Source of the DNA: an uncultured Pelagibacteraceae bacterium
GTDB lineage: Bacteria; Pseudomonadota; Alphaproteobacteria; Pelagibacterales; Pelagibacteraceae
Assembly (NCBI GenBank): GCA_902582155.1
Contig: CACHRI010000006.1
Span: 1-56,097 of the forward strand
Direction of reading: 5' to 3'
Length of the DNA stretch: 56,097 nucleotides
Part shown: positions 6,685 to 15,038 of the stretch, piece by piece
Layout: each line of letters starts with the position of its first letter
Numbering within the stretch: the stretch's first letter is position 1
Position numbers and translations under genes: made by a program
Notes under the pieces: model-generated
Told to the model about the DNA's origin: nothing
Seen by the model: only the letters and a program-made list of their open reading frames with translations
Databases searched by the model: none

Positions 6685-7686
6685 ATGAGTAACTTGTTAG
6701 ATTGTTTAATAAATAGAAAAAGTTCTTCAGTTCCTGTATGGTTCATGAGACAGGCTGGAAGATATTTACCTGAATTTAGAACTATAAGATCAAAAAATAA
6801 AGATTTTCTCAAATTATGTTTTAATAGTGAATTAGCTAAAGAGATAACTCTGCAGCCAATAAAAAGATTCGATCTTGATGCAGCAATTATTTTTTCTGAT
6901 ATTCTTGTGGTTCCTTACGCTTTAAATCAAAATATTGACTTCAAAGGTGTAGACGGTCCAAATATAAATGAACTTAATCTTAATAGTCTTCTTAATACCT
7001 CTAAAAAGAGTTTTTTATCAAAATTAGCACCAGTTTATGATGCTATTAAAATTACAAGAAAAAATTTAAAAAAAGAAAAATCTTTAATATCTTTCGTTGG
7101 CGCGCCTTGGACTTTATTAATTTATATTTTTGGCATGAAAGAGGGAAATAAATTAAATAAAAACATTTTTTCAAAAAAAAAAAATGAGATTAAATTAGTT
7201 ATGAAAAAGTTAGAAATTTTTTTAGAATTTCATATTGAAGAACAAATTAAATCTGGGGCAGATACTGTGCAGATATTTGATTCGTGGGCTGGACTTATAG
7301 ACGAAGATGATCTTGAGGAATTTTGCTTTGGACCAAACCAGAGACTCGTAAATTTTGTTAGGAGGAAAAAAATCCCAACTATATGTTTCCCTAAAGGTCT
7401 AAAAAAAAACTATAAAACTTTTAATGAAGTAGTAAATTGTGAAGGTTTAAATATTGACCAACATGTTGATCCTTCATGGGCCAGAGAAAACTTAAAAGAT
7501 GTGTGTATTCAAGGAGGAATGGATCCACAACTACTTCTTAAAGACAGTAAATTAGTTTTAAAGGAAGTTGAAAAATATTTAAGTATATTTAAGAATAATC
7601 CCTACATATTTAATCTTGGCCATGGTATTCTTCCCCAAACTAATCCAGAAATAATAAAAAAAATTGTAGACAAAATAAAAAAATGA
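6685..7686 (+). CDS. hemE: Uroporphyrinogen decarboxylase
   Basis: HemE removes four carboxyl groups from uroporphyrinogen III to give coproporphyrinogen III in the cytoplasm. The 333-residue protein opens with the diagnostic WFMRQAGRYLPEFR block (residues 19-32). The catalytic aspartate is Asp72 in FSDILVVPYAL, and FVGAPWTLLIY and the late GHGILPQTNPE motif are also present. The ATG overlaps TTAATTAATG of the AT-rich gap and has no clear Shine-Dalgarno. It overlaps hemH by 4 bp, so hemE-hemH-hemJ form a unit. Confidence 0.97.
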   Translation: MSNLLDCLINRKSSSVPVWFMRQAGRYLPEFRTIRSKNKDFLKLCFNSELAKEITLQPIKRFDLDAAIIFSDILVVPYALNQNIDFKGVDGPNINELNLNSLLNTSKKSFLSKLAPVYDAIKITRKNLKKEKSLISFVGAPWTLLIYIFGMKEGNKLNKNIFSKKKNEIKLVMKKLEIFLEFHIEEQIKSGADTVQIFDSWAGLIDEDDLEEFCFGPNQRLVNFVRRKKIPTICFPKGLKKNYKTFNEVVNCEGLNIDQHVDPSWARENLKDVCIQGGMDPQLLLKDSKLVLKEVEKYLSIFKNNPYIFNLGHGILPQTNPEIIKKIVDKIKK

Positions 7687-8675
7687 ACTCAGATCATCCA
7701 AAAATAAATTACGGTAAAACTGGAATATTATTAGTAAACCTTGGTACACCAGACTCCACTAGCTGGTGGGACATCAGAAAATACTTAAAAGAATTTCTTT
7801 CTGACAAAAGAGTAATCGAGGTAAACCCATTTTTATGGAAAATTATTCTATTTTTAATAATTTTAAATTTTAGGCCGTCCAAAACAGCTAAAGCTTATAA
7901 AGAAATATGGATGGAAAAAGAAAATATGTCTCCCTTAAGATATTATACCATAATGCAAACCAAGAAACTTTTGGATAGAATAGGTGGCAAAAATCTGATT
8001 GTTGACTATGCGATGAGATATGGAAATCCTAGTATTAGTGATAAAATCAACAAACTTCATAAAGCAGGATGTGAGAAGCTTATAATTCTTCCGCTGTACC
8101 CTCAATATGCTGCAGCAACTACAGCCACTGTTTGTGATGAAGTTTATAGGGTTTTGATGAAAATGAGATGGCAACCAAGTTTACAAATAATACCTCACTA
8201 CGAGTCAGAGCCTCTCTATATAAATGCTCTAGTAAATAGTATTAAAACTAAAATTTCACAATTATCTTGGAAACCGGAACTTATAATAGCTTCCTACCAC
8301 GGAATACCTCAAAAATATTTTGACAAGGGAGACCCTTACCAATGTTATTGTCAAAAAACATCAAGATTAATAAAAGAAAAATTTAAAGACATTAATTTGA
8401 TTACAACTTTTCAATCAAGATTCGGACCAGATGCTTGGCTGCAGCCATATACGGATAAAACTTTAGAAAAACTCCCAAAAGAAGGAAAAAAAAATGTGCT
8501 TGTAATTTGTCCTGGTTTTTCATCAGACTGTGTTGAAACTTTAGAAGAAATATCTATACAGGGAAGGGATTCATTTCTAGGTGCGGGAGGAAAAAATTTT
8601 GATATTGTCCCGTGTTTAAATGATAGTGAAGATCACATTAATTTGCTTGAAAAATTAGCTAAAGACGCAATTTAA
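7683..8675 (+). CDS. hemH: Ferrochelatase
   Basis: HemH inserts ferrous iron into protoporphyrin IX, the last step of heme synthesis, at the inner membrane surface. The 330-residue protein has LVNLGTPDS near the N-terminus and SYHGIPQKYFDKGDPY with the catalytic His at about 205. The later CPGFSSDCVETLEEI carries the conserved glutamate. CxxxC-like cysteines around QCYCQ and SDCVETL hint at, but do not prove, an iron-sulfur cluster. It starts inside the end of hemE. Confidence 0.97.
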   Translation: MNSDHPKINYGKTGILLVNLGTPDSTSWWDIRKYLKEFLSDKRVIEVNPFLWKIILFLIILNFRPSKTAKAYKEIWMEKENMSPLRYYTIMQTKKLLDRIGGKNLIVDYAMRYGNPSISDKINKLHKAGCEKLIILPLYPQYAAATTATVCDEVYRVLMKMRWQPSLQIIPHYESEPLYINALVNSIKTKISQLSWKPELIIASYHGIPQKYFDKGDPYQCYCQKTSRLIKEKFKDINLITTFQSRFGPDAWLQPYTDKTLEKLPKEGKKNVLVICPGFSSDCVETLEEISIQGRDSFLGAGGKNFDIVPCLNDSEDHINLLEKLAKDAI

Positions 8676-8679
8676 ATTT

Positions 8680-9114
8680 ATGAATGCATATTTAACTTTT
8701 AAATCTCTTCATTTGATAGCAGTTATATCATGGATGGCTGGCTTATTATATCTACCCAGGATATTTGTCTATCACTCTGATGTTAGAAATAATAGGGTGC
8801 AATCTGAAACATTCAAACTTATGGAAAGAAGGTTATATTTTTACATTATGAATCCCGCTATGATTTTGTCCTGGATTTTCGGTATTTTATTAATTCACAC
8901 TCAAGGTCTAGATAGTCTAAACTTCTTATGGATGAAAGTTAAGCTAGGCCTAGTAATTATATTAACTGGCTATCATTTATACTTATTATCTTTACTAAAT
9001 GACTTTCAGATCGATAATAACAGCAAATCTTCAAAGTTTTTTAGATATATAAACGAAGTACCTACCGTTTTGTTAATTATCATCATTTTTGTAGTTGTTT
9101 TTAAACCATTATAA
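8680..9114 (+). CDS. hemJ: Protoporphyrinogen oxidase HemJ
   Basis: HemJ is the membrane protoporphyrinogen IX oxidase used by many alphaproteobacteria in place of HemG/HemY. The 144-residue protein has four predicted helices and the family signature HLIAVISWMAGLLYLPRIFVYH, shown here in two parts as HLIAVISWMAG and LLYLPRIFVYH. The conserved residues are His11, Arg27 and His32. It starts four bases after hemH, so three heme genes are co-transcribed. Confidence 0.93.
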   Translation: MNAYLTFKSLHLIAVISWMAGLLYLPRIFVYHSDVRNNRVQSETFKLMERRLYFYIMNPAMILSWIFGILLIHTQGLDSLNFLWMKVKLGLVIILTGYHLYLLSLLNDFQIDNNSKSSKFFRYINEVPTVLLIIIIFVVVFKPL

Positions 9115-9175
9115 GACTTGATATTTATTTAAAAACACATATATTTAAAATACTTACCTCTTAAAAAACAATCAA

Positions 9176-10447
9176 ATGAATTTACAAGAACTAAAAAAAC
9201 AAAATCCAGCGGATTTAATATCTCAGGCAGAAAAGTTAGGTATTGAAAATCCTAGCACATTAAGAAAGCAGGAAATATTATTTGCAATCTTAAAAAAACT
9301 GGCAGAAAAAAATGAACAAATTAGCGCTTCAGGAGTACTTGAAGTATTACAAGATGGATTCGGTTTTTTAAGAGCAATAGAGTCGAATTATTTACCAGGA
9401 CCAGATGATATCTATGTTAGCCCAAGTCAAATTAGAAGATTTGGTTTAAGAACAGGAGATACGGTAGAGGGAGAGGTAAGGGCACCAAAAGATGCCGAAA
9501 GATATTTTGCTTTATTAAAAGTTAATAATATAAATTTTGATGAGCCTGAAAAAGGGAGAAATAAGATAGCTTTTGATAACTTGACTCCTCTTTATCCCAA
9601 TAAGAGAATAAAACTTGAAATAGAGTCTACAAAAATAGAAAAGAAACCTGACAATACAGCCAGACTTATTGACTTAGTTAGTCCTATAGGTAAAGGCCAA
9701 AGATCGTTAATAGTTTCGCCCCCTAGAGCTGGCAAAACAATGATACTTCAAAACATTGCTCAATCAATTACTGCTAATCATCCAGAAATTTATTTAATGG
9801 TTCTATTGATTGATGAAAGACCTGAAGAAGTTACAGATATGCAAAGATCAGTTAAAGGGGAAGTGGTTTCATCTACTTTTGATGAACCAGCTTCTAGACA
9901 CGTTGCTGTTGCAGAAATGGTAATTGAAAAAGCTAAAAGATTAGTTGAACACAAAAAGGATGTTGTAATACTTTTAGACTCAATAACTAGACTTGGCAGA
10001 GCTTATAATGCAGTTGTTCCAAGTTCAGGAAAAGTTCTTACTGGTGGTGTAGATGCGAACGCGTTGCAAAGACCTAAAAGATTTTTTGGTGCAGCTAGAA
10101 ATGTTGAACAAGGAGGCTCGCTAACTATAATTTCAACAGCTTTAATCGACACTGGAAGCAGAATGGACGAAGTCATTTTTGAGGAGTTTAAAGGAACAGG
10201 TAATTCAGAATTAATATTAGATAGAAAAGTTGCTGATAAAAGAATTTATCCTGCATTGGATATAACTAGGTCAGGAACAAGAAGAGAAGAGCTTTTATTT
10301 GCGAAAGATGACTTGTCTAAAATGAATGTTTTAAGAAGAATTATTAGCCCAATGGGCACTATGGACGGAATTGAATTTTTAATTTCAAAAATAAAAGATA
10401 CTAAAAATAATTCTGATTTTTTTAATTCAATGAATAAATCAAATTAA
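9176..10447 (+). CDS. rho: Transcription termination factor Rho
   Basis: Rho is the hexameric RNA helicase that ends transcription. The 423-residue protein has the cold-shock-like RNA-binding domain ([15 protein letters not shown], then [21 protein letters not shown]) and Walker A SPPRAGKT at about residues 181-188. Walker B is [16 protein letters not shown], and the Q/R loop region is [20 protein letters not shown]. Length is typical. hemE-hemH-hemJ-rho is a frequent order next to the alphaproteobacterial origin. It converges on the LON-domain gene across 13 bp with no obvious terminator hairpin. Confidence 0.98.
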
Positions 10448-10460
10448 TAATTTTATTACA

Positions 10461-11090
10461 TTATTGAATAGTCTCTTTATCGGAAGGGCTTTCGTAAGAA
10501 TAAAAATCAATAATATTTAAAAGCGTATCAGTCTTATCTCCTAAGGATACAGTTTCAAGAAGTTTTTGTTTTTCCTCATTTGATATCGGAGCAATCATAG
10601 AGATCGTATTAATTCTTTGAGATACGTCTAATTTTTCGAATTCTTTCCAATTTATCATCAATCCATTTTTTTCAAAAAATTTTTTCACCTTCCCAATAAA
10701 GTTTGTCTTATCAAATATTGTGTCGGCTTGATCTGGCGAAACCAAATCTTTCTGAAACTTTTGATAATCAACCTCAAATTCCCTATATTTTTTTTTATTA
10801 GAAATTTCCTTTTTAATTTCAAACCTTGTTATACCAGTAAGATTTATTAATACTCTTCCGTCAGAAGTTTCCTGATAATCACTGATTTTTCCTAGGCAGC
10901 CAACTTTATAAACTAAGCTGTTCTCTTTTTTTGACTGGACCATGCCCATTAATTTATCACTCCTGAAAGAATCATTAACTAAGTCTAGATATCTTTCTTC
11001 AAAAATATTTAAAGGTAAATTAGTCCTTGGAAAATAAATCACACCACTTAACGGAAAAATTGGTATATGTTTCGGAAATTTTTTATTCAT
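10461..11090 (-). CDS. LON N-terminal (substrate-binding) domain protein
   Basis: This is a stand-alone LON domain of 209 residues, without the AAA+ or protease parts of Lon. Features seen are the IPIFPLSGVIYFPRTNLPLNIFEERY start, the GMVQSKKE and GCLGKISDYQETSDGR strands, and a helical C-terminus. Such proteins are common single-domain genes in alphaproteobacteria. They are presumed to bind substrates or partners, but no specific role is established. A truncated tRNA gene lies 157 bp upstream on the other strand. Confidence 0.9.
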   Translation of the reverse strand: MNKKFPKHIPIFPLSGVIYFPRTNLPLNIFEERYLDLVNDSFRSDKLMGMVQSKKENSLVYKVGCLGKISDYQETSDGRVLINLTGITRFEIKKEISNKKKYREFEVDYQKFQKDLVSPDQADTIFDKTNFIGKVKKFFEKNGLMINWKEFEKLDVSQRINTISMIAPISNEEKQKLLETVSLGDKTDTLLNIIDFYSYESPSDKETIQ

Positions 11091-11151
11091 AATATAATTA
11101 TATGTTTAAAAAATTGGAGCTGTCAATTTATAAAAATATACTTAAAAATAT

Positions 11152-11183
11152 TTGGCATACTCTTGGCACTGTTCTGCTATAAT
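11152..11183 (+). promoter_or_regulatory. Possible extended -10 promoter upstream of the tRNA-Gly fragment
   Basis: TGCTATAAT (extended -10, with the hexamer at 11178-11183) is preceded by two copies of TTGGCA at 11152-11157 and 11163-11168. The spacings (20 and 9 bp) are not ideal, so any promoter would rely mainly on the extended -10. It sits 64 bp before the tRNA-Gly fragment and could be the original promoter of that tRNA gene. Confidence 0.4.
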
Positions 11184-11246
11184 TTAACAAATTTTGCCTA
11201 TTGCTTAATTTTAAAAAAGCTAATACTTTCAATGTTAACAGAACTT

Positions 11247-11285
11247 GCGGGCATAGCTCAGTGGTAGAGCGTCTCGTTGCCAACG
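11247..11285 (+). pseudogene. Truncated tRNA-Gly(GCC): 5' half only
   Basis: These 39 bases are identical to positions 1-39 of the intact tRNA-Gly at 14402. They run from the first base of the acceptor stem through the D arm and anticodon loop (TTGCCAA) to the second base of the 3' anticodon stem. Identity stops sharply at both edges: T versus A before, T versus A after. The 3' anticodon stem, T arm and acceptor strand are missing, so it cannot make a tRNA. Confidence 0.95.
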
Positions 11286-11425
11286 TTATCGACAAAAAAC
11301 TCGTTTCTTGCAAATCCATCAGGTTTAACAAAATTATTTGCTAATACAAAATAATCATTATATTTGCAAGTAATAGTATAGGTATTGATTATTTGAGTAT
11401 GTATATTAATTTTATATAATAATAT
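11286..11425. other. Non-coding spacer inside the island
   Basis: Together with 11091-11246 this forms a gene-free stretch of about 335 bp broken only by the tRNA fragment and the possible promoter. Past the fragment I see AT-rich sequence with no hairpin terminator, no second tRNA part and no convincing Shine-Dalgarno before the ATG at 11426. Confidence 0.5.
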
Positions 11426-14173
11426 ATGCAAAAATTTTTTAAAATAATAATTTTTCTTAATTTATTTTTTGTATTTTTTTCCCCTTTAAAGTCTGAAGAG
11501 ATTACCGAAAATACATCTGTTAGTAAAAAAGTCGAGGAACTCGGAAAATTTGTAGAACCAAAAAACTATCCCGCTGGCATGCAAGATTATTTTTTAGCTG
11601 GTTGCAATGGATTTGTATGTACTGCAGACAATTTAGCAAAAGAAATGATTGCTCTTTTTAATAGAAAAGGAGCCTATCTGGATAAATATCCAGGTACCCA
11701 GTTACATGCAATGGCAATGTTTGAGGTGTTCTATCAAAAAAAACTGAAAGATAATGAAGATAAAATTAATAAATTTATCGAAACATCAGAGGGAAAGAAA
11801 AAAAATAGTAAAGATATAAAGTCTTTAATCAAACTTAATGAAGCACGAAAAAAGATGAGATCTAGTTTAGGAATGAATTTGCAAATTAGTACAGAAAAAG
11901 CAATGGAAAATTATTGGGTATTGGGAGATTTCCTAAATCAAGGAGAGAGTAAAAAAAATAGAATTGACAAAGAAATAAAGAAAAGGAAAAAAATTATTAA
12001 AGAGTACCAATCAATTGTAAGTAGCTTAAAAACAAGTATTTCAAAAGAAAAAGAAAAAAAATTCTACGATAAATTAACAGATAAAAAAATTAATTTAGAT
12101 ATTAATTTTAAAAGAGATCCAAATGAAAAATTTAAGAGTGATATTTTAAAATTAAGAAAAAAAATAGTTAATTTACCTGAAGGAAAAAAAGAATTAGCAA
12201 AGAATTTCGACAAAGCAGTTGAAGAAATAAACAGCTTTACAGATTATGTCTTGGAAAATATTCAGAACGAAGCCTTAAAAGATAAAGGTTTAAATCTTTT
12301 AAAAAAAAAATTAGCTAATATTGAAAATAAATTACCAAAAGAATATTCTAACGATCTTTCAAAAGCCAATATTAAAAAAATAAGTAAAAATGCCCCAACC
12401 GTGATGGAAGAAGTAACTCAAAATATAAAAAGGAAAAGAGAAAAAGATACTAAAACCCTTATTGCAGATATGTCTGAATTTAATAAACAAGGTTTTAATT
12501 TGTTTAAATTAAATAGAAATTTAAAACAAATGGGCTTTGAGACTATTAAATTTGAAACTATTTCTAAATTTGTAAATAATAATGAAACCATTAATGAAAC
12601 TAGTAATAAATCGTCTAAATTAATTCAAAATAAAATTGACTTAACAACAAAATCAATGAGTAAGCTAGGTTATAAAAATAGCGAAATTAACAAAGAAATA
12701 GAGATTATAAAATCGACCGGGATAAACTCTGAATTATCTCAGAATATTTTGACTGCAAGGCAAATGATTATTTCTGGCGCAAGTGATAAAGAAATTCAAG
12801 ATGAAATAAATTTGTGGAGCAGCATTAACATTTCAAATCTTCAAAACGATGCATATCTAATGGCACTTAATGCAAGGTCACAAGGTATATTGGCAAAAAA
12901 TATAAAAAATAAAATTCAAATTATTAATGCTGTAGAAACATACAGACAAGTTGATAAATTATTAGCTCAAGTGGAAGAACAAGTGGATAAATCAAATATT
13001 CCTACTCTAGCACCTAGCGATAATGATCTTGAACAAAACGCTTTAGTTTTTGCTCAAGCAGGAGGATCCGAGTACACAAATAATTTCTTTTCTGCTGGTA
13101 GCAAGGATATGTTTTACGATAAATTCTTAGAGGAGCAAAAAAATAAACAGATAGAAATTTTTCAAAAGAAATTTACTGCAGCAGATATTTATAAGGAAAT
13201 CAATACACCCTTAACAATAGTTTCAGTAATAGTTGCACCGTCTCCAATGAATGTTATTAAATTAGCTAAAATAGCAAAAGAGCAAGCTGATGAAAAAAAA
13301 GCTAGAATTTTAGCAGCAGCAAGTTTTGGAACTGGGGAAGATGAACTAGGCGCAGGAGACTATGTAGATCCAAGAATTTTTGAGAGAACAATGAAAGTTT
13401 TAAACGCAATACAAGTAAAAGATATCAAGTCTAAAAATTTAGCAAAAAAATTAAATTATAGTATTAGACTTATATCTTTAGAAGCAGCCACAGATGAAAT
13501 TACAGATCAATCAGGTGATAATATTAGCGAAGTAATTCAGGAAAACAAAAAAGATGATGTACCGAAAAATATTTGTGTAGCTGAAGACTGTTTCGTCGTT
13601 GGACCACCTGTTGAACCAACACCAATAAATCCAATTATGCCTATAGATGATTTTATAAGAAAAGCTGAAAAAGTTAAAAAAGTAGAACTTATTAAAAATT
13701 TTCAAACAATGATTCAAGATAAAAATATTTCTAATTTAGAAATTTCAAATAGAACTTTAACTAATGGTAGAATAATGGATATTGAGCTTTACCTTGTGTC
13801 AACAGGCATAAAAGATGCTTCAAAAAAAGTATCCGATGCTTACGCAGCAGTCGGATTAAGCAAAGACGGAATGCCTTCACTGGACGCTATTTTAGATCCA
13901 TCATTTGATATTGCTGCTCATTTAGATGCAATGGATACAGTTGCTTCAGAAGCAGGTCTTCAAGCAGATATTGCCTCAGCAAGCCAAGCAGCAGCTGATG
14001 TTCAAGATGCAATCAATGCAGCTAGTGGTGAAATATCAGAAGAATTAGCTCAAGCTAATGCGGAAGCTCAACAAGCACTTGCAGATGCCCAAAAAGCATT
14101 AGATGAATCCAGAGCAGATCCTAATGCTGACGATGAGGGAGCAGATTGCGCTAGTGATATAAATGCGTGTTAA
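11426..14173 (+). CDS. Large exported alpha-helical protein of unknown function
   Basis: This 915-residue protein is unrecognised. Residues 1-23 form a clear signal peptide (KFF, a long hydrophobic run, then LKSEE), so it is probably periplasmic or secreted. Residues about 100-560 are dominated by Lys/Glu/Asn/Ile-rich helices with coiled-coil character. Residues about 600-640 contain a more hydrophobic segment (LTIVSVIVAPSPMNVIKLA), and the last 90 residues become Ala/Asp/Glu/Gln-rich. Six cysteines fall in three close pairs: C60/C65, C717/C722 and C908/C915, the last ending the protein. This suggests disulfides. It is alone between the tRNA-Gly fragment and the intact tRNA. It could be a surface, adhesin-like or filament-forming protein, but nothing in the sequence proves that. 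Confidence 0.85.
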   Translation: MQKFFKIIIFLNLFFVFFSPLKSEEITENTSVSKKVEELGKFVEPKNYPAGMQDYFLAGCNGFVCTADNLAKEMIALFNRKGAYLDKYPGTQLHAMAMFEVFYQKKLKDNEDKINKFIETSEGKKKNSKDIKSLIKLNEARKKMRSSLGMNLQISTEKAMENYWVLGDFLNQGESKKNRIDKEIKKRKKIIKEYQSIVSSLKTSISKEKEKKFYDKLTDKKINLDINFKRDPNEKFKSDILKLRKKIVNLPEGKKELAKNFDKAVEEINSFTDYVLENIQNEALKDKGLNLLKKKLANIENKLPKEYSNDLSKANIKKISKNAPTVMEEVTQNIKRKREKDTKTLIADMSEFNKQGFNLFKLNRNLKQMGFETIKFETISKFVNNNETINETSNKSSKLIQNKIDLTTKSMSKLGYKNSEINKEIEIIKSTGINSELSQNILTARQMIISGASDKEIQDEINLWSSINISNLQNDAYLMALNARSQGILAKNIKNKIQIINAVETYRQVDKLLAQVEEQVDKSNIPTLAPSDNDLEQNALVFAQAGGSEYTNNFFSAGSKDMFYDKFLEEQKNKQIEIFQKKFTAADIYKEINTPLTIVSVIVAPSPMNVIKLAKIAKEQADEKKARILAAASFGTGEDELGAGDYVDPRIFERTMKVLNAIQVKDIKSKNLAKKLNYSIRLISLEAATDEITDQSGDNISEVIQENKKDDVPKNICVAEDCFVVGPPVEPTPINPIMPIDDFIRKAEKVKKVELIKNFQTMIQDKNISNLEISNRTLTNGRIMDIELYLVSTGIKDASKKVSDAYAAVGLSKDGMPSLDAILDPSFDIAAHLDAMDTVASEAGLQADIASASQAAADVQDAINAASGEISEELAQANAEAQQALADAQKALDESRADPNADDEGADCASDINAC

Positions 14174-14240
14174 CTTAAAGATTAGCTTTCAAATTTTTAA
14201 AAATGTACTTTTTGTTTATAAGACTAATCGAAAATAAATA

Positions 14241-14304
14241 AGTGATAGCATAGGGATAGAGATTGCTCATTAACCCCGTAAATGAGTGATAGTATAGGGA
14301 TAGA
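14241..14304. repeat. Imperfect 20-bp direct repeat upstream of tRNA-Gly
   Basis: AGTGATAGCATAGGGATAGA at 14241-14260 recurs at 14285-14304 with one change (C to T), giving a 44-bp repeat period. It lies between the 915-residue gene and the intact tRNA-Gly, inside the right end of the putative island. It may be a recombinase arm site, a regulatory repeat or a duplication scar. Confidence 0.75.
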
Positions 14305-14356
14305 CTTTGTTCCACATACGTACACATCAAACCGCACCAATATATTTTTCATCATC

Positions 14357-14385
14357 TTGCTTTCTACGTTTTATGCGGTTAAACT
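14357..14385 (+). promoter_or_regulatory. Possible promoter of tRNA-Gly
   Basis: TTGCTT (14357-14362) and TAAACT (14380-14385) are 17 bp apart and place a transcription start about 8-10 nt before the tRNA. Each matches the sigma-70 consensus only partly. If the island model holds, this promoter came with the island. Confidence 0.35.
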
Positions 14386-14401
14386 TTCAGGATTAAAGAT
14401 A

Positions 14402-14476
14402 AGCGGGCATAGCTCAGTGGTAGAGCGTCTCGTTGCCAACGAGAAGGTCGAGGGTTCAAGTCCCTTTGCCCGCTCC
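14402..14476 (+). tRNA. tRNA-Gly (anticodon GCC)
   Basis: This is a complete cloverleaf. The acceptor stem is GCGGGCA/TGCCCGC, the D arm GCTC...GAGC, the anticodon stem TCTCG/CGAGA and the anticodon loop TTGCCAA, with GCC as anticodon. The T arm is GAGGG/CCCTT with loop TTCAAGT. The discriminator T is at 14473 and CCA is encoded (14474-14476). Its first 39 bases are duplicated at 11247. Confidence 0.97.
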
Positions 14477-14537
14477 AAACAATAGCGACCAAATTTCCAT
14501 TTTTTTTTGCTAATTTTTAGGTATTATTATCCTTAAT

Positions 14538-15038
14538 ATGTTTAGATTAATTATAAGTTTAATAATTATTTTCCCATCCATTTGTTTTGCTTCATCTATG
14601 AAGATGATTGGCGAAAAGGGGAATATCAAAGATGTAACAAAAGTTATCAATGTAAAAATGTACGATAACTATTATGAGCCAAATAAAATTACTGTTAAAA
14701 AAGGAGAAACAGTAAAATTCGTAGTTAAAAATATGGGTGAGCTTGTCCATGAATTAAATATTGCAACCAAAGAAATGCATATAAAGCATCAACCTGAAAT
14801 GGCGAAAATGGTAGAAAATGAAATACTCTTAGCTGACAAAATAGATAAAAATAAAATGAAAGAGATGGCAAAAATGGATCACTCTATGGGACACAAACAC
14901 GCCAATAGTGTTTTACTTGAACCAAATAATACTGGAGAGATAATTTGGAAGTTCAATACTTCAGCAAGATTGGAAATTGCATGTAATGTACCTGGCCATT
15001 ACGAAGCCGGGATGATAGCTAAGATAATTAAAGATTAA
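14538..15038 (+). CDS. Exported cupredoxin (copper-binding) domain protein
   Basis: This 166-residue protein has a signal peptide (about residues 1-19) and one plastocyanin/azurin-like domain. Type 1 copper ligands are visible: His71 (ELVHELNI), Cys149, His154 and Met159 (CNVPGHYEAGM). Between them is a long His/Met-rich insertion (residues 78-121, with MHIKHQPEM and MDHSMGHKH) that looks like an extra copper-binding loop. Likely roles are periplasmic copper handling or electron transfer, as in the CopI/CopC-associated cupredoxins. It starts 61 bp after tRNA-Gly and is followed 2 bp later by the PCD gene. Confidence 0.9.
   Translation: MFRLIISLIIIFPSICFASSMKMIGEKGNIKDVTKVINVKMYDNYYEPNKITVKKGETVKFVVKNMGELVHELNIATKEMHIKHQPEMAKMVENEILLADKIDKNKMKEMAKMDHSMGHKHANSVLLEPNNTGEIIWKFNTSARLEIACNVPGHYEAGMIAKIIKD

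Follow-up and report, generated by a model that had tools for sequence, protein, structure and literature searches.

A probable integrase-less cassette at the tRNA-Gly gene of an uncultured Pelagibacteraceae bacterium, and related cassettes at the same site in its family

Why do the first 39 nt of the tRNA-Gly(GCC) gene stand twice in the 56,097-nt stretch of contig CACHRI010000006.1 analysed here (GenBank assembly GCA_902582155.1, an uncultured Pelagibacteraceae bacterium; hereafter 'the window'), once alone and once at the head of the complete gene? Positions 11247-11285 equal 14403-14441 on the same strand (39/39 nt), the two starts being 3,156 bp apart, and a simple base-composition model predicts about 1e-12 exact 39-mer pairs in the window by chance. 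ARAGORN calls a single tRNA-Gly(GCC), at 14403-14477, and does not call the half copy; likewise, a search of the whole assembly (977 kb, 17 contigs, 88% complete) with the 75-nt gene yielded, at E ≤ 0.001, the full gene and the half only. A preliminary description of the window had already reported an exact, same-orientation copy of tRNA positions 1-39, and this is borne out, as is its upstream position; the distance, given there as 3,155 bp, is 3,156 bp from start to start. Correct, too, was the description of an insert behind a duplicated 5' half that contains one giant gene (an open reading frame, ORF, of 915 codons) and no recombinase, the assembly's sole match to PF00589 being located on another contig (C1). 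Judging from sequence comparison, the 3,156-bp stretch is a site-specific insertion at a point within tRNA-Gly(GCC), and we consider it quite probable that it is an integrated cassette devoid of an integrase, mobilised in trans, that brought along the 5' half of a tRNA gene together with what is probably a new promoter for it.

The occupied state becomes apparent when the locus is compared with that of relatives. The usual gene order is a divergent LON-domain gene, tRNA-Gly, and then PCD, either directly or after a cupredoxin gene. The LON gene and the full tRNA are both present in 51 of 61 pieces compared, at most 250 bp apart in 37 and farther apart in 14 (the 61 pieces included occupied sites fetched on purpose, so that 37 versus 14 is not a frequency); it is thus not the case that all relatives share the fragment and the gene, as would be expected had no insertion occurred. 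The distance is 122 bp in G001, 205 bp in G016 and 124 bp in G027, whose Rho proteins are about 98% identical to the window's, and in G001, G016 and G074 the cupredoxin gene lies next to the tRNA. The arrangement that the preliminary description had proposed to look for, i.e., a single tRNA-Gly between the LON and cupredoxin genes, is hence found in the latter three genomes. Since G001, G016, G027 and G074 possess a near-empty site, the window's own genome (G000 in the genus comparisons) carries an insertion relative to them. Ends of inserts at this site were sorted by eye into types 1 and 2, and in these terms the locus comprises the following features:

10461-11090, minus strand: LON substrate-binding-domain gene (Pfam PF02190), left neighbour of the site
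11153-11246, plus strand: probable scar, right end of an older type-2 element (alignment with type-2 right ends)
11247-11285, plus strand: displaced 5' half of tRNA-Gly (positions 1-39), attL side; exact repeat of 14403-14441
11286-11388, plus strand: conserved left end of the type-1 cassette, alignable with the left ends of G009, G091, G146 and G098
11426-14173, plus strand: cargo gene, 915-aa ORF with an apparent N-terminal signal sequence (by eye)
14241-14260, plus strand: arm-type repeat, right end, copy 1, AGTGATAGCATAGGGATAGA
14285-14304, plus strand: arm-type repeat, right end, copy 2, AGTGATAGTATAGGGATAGA
14305-14402, plus strand: right end running into the tRNA, with promoter-like TTGCTT (14357-14362), 17 nt and TAAACT (14380-14385)
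14403-14477, plus strand: complete tRNA-Gly(GCC) (ARAGORN), apparently rebuilt at the attR side; sole complete copy found in the assembly
14538-15038, plus strand: cupredoxin gene (Pfam PF13473), adjoining the site on the right, as in G001, G016 and G074

Are the edges of this insert peculiar to the window? A search of 169 genomes of the genus, 138 of which have any tRNA-Gly match, revealed an exact extra copy of the tRNA 5' end of 37-40 nt in nine (39 nt in G000, G009 and G146; 40 nt in G091, G151, G036, G063 and G024; 37 nt in G107), diverged and apparently decaying half copies in G093 and G098, and a third diverged match in G127. Type-1 left ends are present in G000, G009, G091 and G146 and, diverged, in G098; they consist of TATC.ACAAAAAACTC after the half followed by one 20-nt arm-type repeat. 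Type-1 right ends, which contain up to two such repeats and run into the tRNA, occur in addition in G033 and in G141, the latter being one of the 37 near-empty sites (240 bp) and retaining a remnant of this end. With at most two mismatches, the arm motif is found in 8/169 genus genomes (0 for the reversed control), and in seven of the eight it adjoins tRNA-Gly or its half. The exception is G099, an assembly without a tRNA-Gly match, in which the motif, with 2 mismatches, is located about 1.2 kb from a contig end (L102, 1501-1520) on a piece that likewise lacks tRNA-Gly. Among the genomes of 84,980 species, a collection that may leave out the window's own genome, the exact motif occurs in three, all Pelagibacteraceae (AG-325-J13, AG-913-O23 and AG-414-M09).

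The window's insert thus shows conserved ends, with one arm-type repeat after the displaced half on the left and two running into the tRNA on the right, and in other Pelagibacteraceae, as comparison shows, such ends enclose different cargo at this site. Between type-1 ends we find (i) the 915-aa gene in G000, (ii) an OmpA-like barrel and two other ORFs in G009, (iii) a PvuII-family endonuclease together with a DNA methylase in G146, and (iv) a type IV pilus system within a 23.6-kb insert in G091, pilus genes being present also in G033 and G098. The identical 39-bp repeat with different cargo, suggested earlier as a check, does therefore exist, and the view of the tRNA as an attachment site gains from both the empty sites of near relatives and the ends recurring around other cargo. 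It follows that a scar of tandem tRNA duplication, which the preliminary description had entertained, is to be rejected, because the left junction, the arm-type repeats and the right end recur around unrelated cargo in other genomes. An assembly join, the other account for which the repeat itself is the sole argument, is very unlikely because the same kind of junction, including the left end following the half, is seen in separately assembled genomes, among them three matching named assemblies whose AG- names we take to denote single-cell genomes. Taken together, these two accounts are hardly credible.

With regard to the pilus system at the tRNA-Gly site, that of G091 (L113/L114) comprises an array of about ten similar pilins, and further pieces of such systems are found at the site in L047 (G033) and L169/L170 (G098). 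The PilM/PilN protein carries an unmatched N-terminal extension of about 70-100 residues; an assignment of this extension as an integrase arm-binding domain was considered and discarded (hhalign probability 0.1, no Pfam match).

Did such cassettes move as units? The window's non-coding right end (14241-14402) is 98.8% identical to that of G009 and 97.9% identical to that of G091 (143/162 nt aligned), and, over shorter stretches, 93.3% and 92.4% identical to those of G141 and G033, respectively. The rho, LON, PCD and purH genes of G009 and G091 are 71-83% identical to the window's, and in the 60 nt after the tRNA identity drops to 37% (G009) and 44% (G091). (The purH homologue of G091, at L113 711-2266, is split into two overlapping ORFs, through either a frameshift or a mistake in assembly.) G230 and G302, which belong to another genus of the family, provide the strongest sign of recent movement of an integrase-less cassette itself: they have in common a 1,647-bp integrase-less cassette with 99.9% identity, and their PCD-purH stretch is 70.6% identical.

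These data bear on two other explanations. Homologous recombination might have spread the cassettes, with the tRNA gene and shared right ends serving as anchors and site-specific integration being merely ancient. SAR11 populations recombine often (PMC2217521; here and below, sources are cited for individual passages that bear on the point), the tRNA copies constitute short identical anchors, and the flanks of G230 and G373 are about 93-95% identical. Yet the BLAST block shared by G230 and G302 begins 2 nt ahead of the half and ends shortly after the tRNA, the identity of G000 and G009 likewise ends at the tRNA, and 39-41 nt is short for an anchor, so that we regard this explanation as distinctly improbable. 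Alternatively, the window's cassette might be a relic of a complete satellite or island that lost its integrase and replication genes through deletion and became fixed, its right end being kept as it drives the tRNA. A degenerate left arm repeat, the decaying halves of G093 and G098, the complete integrase-bearing elements at the same site (see below) and the failure to find a type-1 helper are all in keeping with a relic; set against it are the recurrence of the same integrase-less form with different cargo and intact ends, and the 99.9% identity of such a cassette between diverged genomes, from which it follows that the integrase-less form itself moves in at least one subtype. A relic is, in our view, unlikely.

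Candidate helpers for mobilisation in trans come from two sources: the comparisons show that elements encoding an integrase occupy this tRNA site too, and that a circular viral contig has the 5' half of the tRNA, as attP, next to its integrase gene. In the G388 element, a half tRNA is followed by an integrase (317 aa, PF00589), small ORFs, a DUF5906 protein and the full tRNA, with a half-to-full spacing of 6,066 bp; a related element in G387 spans 8,355 bp. Both are satellite-like and possess their own arm-like repeats at both ends. The viral contig, L086, is probably a 5,875-bp circle, given its exact 123-bp terminal overlap, and contains 41 nt of the tRNA-Gly 5' half directly before the integrase gene. 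Over its first 225 residues, this integrase shares 73% identity with its G388 counterpart; the contig further has a Terminase_2-like gene and an AAA ATPase, and its left end resembles, by eye, type-2 cassette ends. Arm-like repeats are not evident in L086, nor, by 9-mers, in G036 and G151. Over all data, 18 half/full pairs on one piece were tabulated, 191-23,557 bp apart, and two of these 18, the elements of G388 and G387, have a match to the L086 integrase, the one integrase family tested; G000 has none.

A PF00589 search of 18 genomes gave exactly one match each in 13, none on an element contig, where absence of an integrase is weak evidence as most genomes are incomplete drafts. One may ask if the cassettes are moved by the host's Xer-type recombinase, which in most of these genomes is the only PF00589 protein found. 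This is very improbable: the site is a tRNA and not dif-like, satellites that encode an integrase insert there as well, and arm repeats in pairs point to a lambda-type integrase.

Viral contigs were also inspected for further traces. The arm motif in 11 of them was dismissed as unrelated, being part of near-identical stretches in related contigs on pieces without tRNA-Gly; a frame check reveals no open frame there, and the stretches are therefore not called coding. Of nine viral contigs with the type-2 left-end pattern, eight have neither a tRNA-Gly half nor an integrase match and were set aside, the ninth being L086. Neither type-1 left ends nor a type-2 right end turned up in scans of viral contigs, and the 75-nt tRNA had no match in the phages collection (near mode). 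A 43-kb viral contig, L087, encodes a complete tRNA-Gly(GCC) (603-677) of which the first 39 nt equal the window's, with no half copy on the 4.3 kb examined.

How would a cassette without an integrase enter and leave a tRNA gene intact? Presumably, a tyrosine integrase encoded by a satellite or phage acts in trans, its targets being the arm repeats and a core located in the anticodon region. The cassette, as a circle, would carry its own 5' half and promoter, so that recombination would restore a complete, transcribable tRNA on the right; on the left, the former promoter would then transcribe a half without use. Since the tRNA looks single-copy, selection should then keep the right end while the left half decays. 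A cargo-only satellite mobilised in trans, one of the options named in the preliminary description, is the one best supported by the sequence comparisons. It is tempting to speculate further that, in the Pelagibacteraceae, integrases of satellites carry integrase-less units from one species to another, each unit consisting of one to a few genes enclosed by a tRNA-Gly 5' half, arm sites and a new tRNA promoter, and that such units gain control over the expression of a single-copy tRNA; we hold a trans-acting cassette system of this kind to be possible, if slightly doubtful.

The promoter deserves separate consideration. The 60 nt upstream of the tRNA at the 37 near-empty sites contain TTGACC in 26 cases, TTGCTT in five and neither in six, the window's nearest relatives being among the six. 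By eye, right ends exhibit TTGCTT-17-TAAACT (type 1), and TTGCTT-17-TACTTT or TTGCAT-17-TATAAT (type 2), and most of the aligned type-1 right ends have TTGCTT..TAAA at an equivalent position. These motifs suggest that each cassette probably brings a replacement tRNA promoter. Supply of a promoter to the gene entered is known for elements in dusA and prfC, which likewise insert in the 5' part of the gene and replace its promoter; those, however, are protein genes and the effect was shown by experiment, whereas here a tRNA gene is concerned and the proposal derives from motifs (PMC8409611).

Several observations weigh against this picture. The consensus promoter scan does not call the window's motif, and promoter-like sites in the right-end region are no more frequent than in shuffles. 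The left arm-type repeat (11369-11388) is degenerate, with 3 mismatches of 20, and the window's copy may therefore no longer move. The left end is about 82% identical to those of G009 and G091, which is no more than for rho, and G091 diverges in the last 42 nt before the tRNA (71%). No integrase matching the type-1 arm repeats was found in the genus genomes, which are drafts; as no arm repeats of candidate helpers equal the type-1 repeat, a helper for the window's cassette was not found. In G028, G014, G015 and G003, inserts occupy the site and a half copy was not detected. Finally, G108 and G100 carry the cargo gene at the tRNA-Gly site with no half copy and with GT17 and FkbM genes as neighbours; similarity of their right ends to type 1 is confined to the surroundings of TTGCTT..TAAA (45-46% overall). 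In view of these two genomes and the inserts without a half, there may be several routes by which the cargo arrived at the site. The insert of G003 between LON and tRNA-Gly (L048, reverse strand, about 7500-12960) contains apparent tripartite tricarboxylate transporter genes, and its right end is partly type-1-like.

The window's site seems to have been occupied before. The stretch 11153-11246, upstream of the half, aligns with type-2 right ends of G036, G151, G063 and G093 (65.4% identity to G036 in the aligned stretch), includes an arm-like repeat at about 11153-11171 as well as a promoter-like motif of TTGCTT (11201-11206), 17 nt and TACTTT (11224-11229), and was, by eye, not seen in the empty sites of the near relatives G001, G016 and G027. 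The simplest order of events is that a type-2 element inserted and was mostly lost, its right end being left as the tRNA promoter, and that the type-1 cassette then entered the restored tRNA. A tandem exists in G009, where a 915-aa homologue, a half copy, a second element and the full tRNA follow one another.

As for the cargo gene itself, the 915-aa protein has no Pfam, PHROG or NCBIfam match; a single weak PADLOC match covers 54 residues (PDC-M35B, E 8e-4), the best hit among PDB sequences has E 0.42, and an AlphaFold model from one sequence is unusable (mean pLDDT 38.5). From its signal-like N-terminus (by eye), it may be a secreted or envelope protein. Full-length homologues in G009, G108 and G100 are 79%, 77% and 74% identical, all four copies lying beside tRNA-Gly; some match exists in 29/397 genomes of the family (two candidates scored per genome) and none in the viral contigs searched. 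Relatives at other loci (L193-L200, L043) often comprise two neighbouring ORFs of about 220-300 aa and 320-1,600 aa, and several are located near a tRNA-Leu gene.

How widespread are these cassettes? The search was extended to the 397 family genomes, and 14 were examined among the matches listed, namely twelve with two matches plus G387 and G388 (G517, G525, G575 and G577 listed two matches too and were left out of the 14). In 11 of the 14, a same-orientation 5'-half copy precedes the full tRNA by 1.1-8.4 kb; in G285 it is on another contig, and G271 and G508 show other arrangements. The second, partial tRNA-Gly match of G508 (L219), covering positions 29-75 (85%) downstream of the full gene, is possibly a 3'-half arrangement or another tRNA. 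Five genomes carry a 416-aa beta-propeller of the choice-of-anchor-I type as cargo (Pfam was applied to the copy of G302). Other cargo comprises a DUF4268 protein that matches PDC-S11, a candidate defence family (E 1e-122), a T5orf172 protein partially matching PDC-S57 and PD-Lambda-1, a trypsin-like protease, type I methylase and specificity subunits, and a 195-aa protein without a Pfam match. The cassette of G373 (L214, 2280-5522, minus strand; 3,243 nt) contains phnD-, phnC- and phnE-like genes, of which PhnE alone passes its NCBIfam cut-off, and a methyltransferase. Across cassettes, cargo thus includes defence genes, type IV pili and phosphonate uptake.

SAR11-type bacteria are very abundant and have streamlined genomes. 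The locus bears on how they gain single adaptive genes, as it offers a defined slot with recognisable ends, candidate integrases and ecologically meaningful cargo, and occupied sites can be searched for in any collection of genomes by their half-tRNA signature. If the replacement promoter is real, the element holds a single-copy tRNA gene hostage; if the trans-acting system is, genes for phage defence, pili and phosphonate uptake would travel by this route in the surface ocean, and a recent transfer of phnCDEubiE described in the literature may be one instance.

It remains to relate the cassettes to known systems. Islander lists a 5' fragment in 159/3,919 tDNA islands, and sites in the anticodon region are known (PMC4383910). 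The cassettes resemble such islands in having a complete tRNA at one end and a same-orientation fragment at the other, but Islander rejects candidates without an integrase gene or below 2 kb, whereas most cassettes here lack an integrase and many measure 1-2 kb (PMC4383910). The window has the same-orientation 5' fragment upstream of its tRNA and no PF00589 match on its contig, and is therefore not filed as an Islander island. In Dehalococcoides, integrase-less islands with att ends share the ssrA gene with integrase-bearing ones, in tandem and with adaptive cargo, and were called possible cis-mobilizable elements; there, however, the 3' end of ssrA is repeated and a serine recombinase is involved, as opposed to a tRNA 5' half and tyrosine-type integrases (PMC3146451). 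As for cis-mobilizable elements in that sense, the window's cassette keeps att ends and lacks integration and transfer genes, with one cargo gene only; such elements would, in addition, move jointly with a neighbouring element, and of the cassettes compared, that of G009 stands in tandem. The element of G388 is akin to PICMIs in size (about 6 kb), PF00589 integrase and DUF5906 primase, while PICMIs, which can carry restriction-modification genes, lie beside fis in Vibrionaceae and need alpA (PMC10803314); alpA was not found in the G388 element, no search aimed at AlpA having been made, and neither integrase, AlpA nor primase was found in the window's cassette. Tycheposons combine a tRNA border with a tyrosine recombinase (PMC10872708), and the insert has no recombinase. 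Integron cassettes are characterised by an attC site and an integron integrase; the ends observed in the window's cassette consist of a tRNA half and arm-type repeats. The phnCDEubiE operon (3,263 nt), transferred between HIMB59 and Pelagibacter, adjoins tRNA genes and tyrosine recombinases in Pelagibacterales; the G373 cassette, which has no L086-integrase match, is like it in gene content and length (3,243 versus 3,263 nt), and the passages in question neither name the tRNA nor describe a cassette (PMC12416821). Literature searches in an open-access collection, most subscription journals being outside this scope, gave no paper that by title or abstract deals with tRNA-Gly 5'-half cassettes in SAR11. 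The 5'-fragment tDNA islands (PMC4383910), integrase-less islands at RNA genes (PMC3146451) and small integrase-primase satellites (PMC10803314) are known kinds, and what is probably new is their combination: small cassettes, mostly integrase-less, that occur across the Pelagibacteraceae and are equipped with the 5' half of a tRNA and, probably, a promoter that travels with them.

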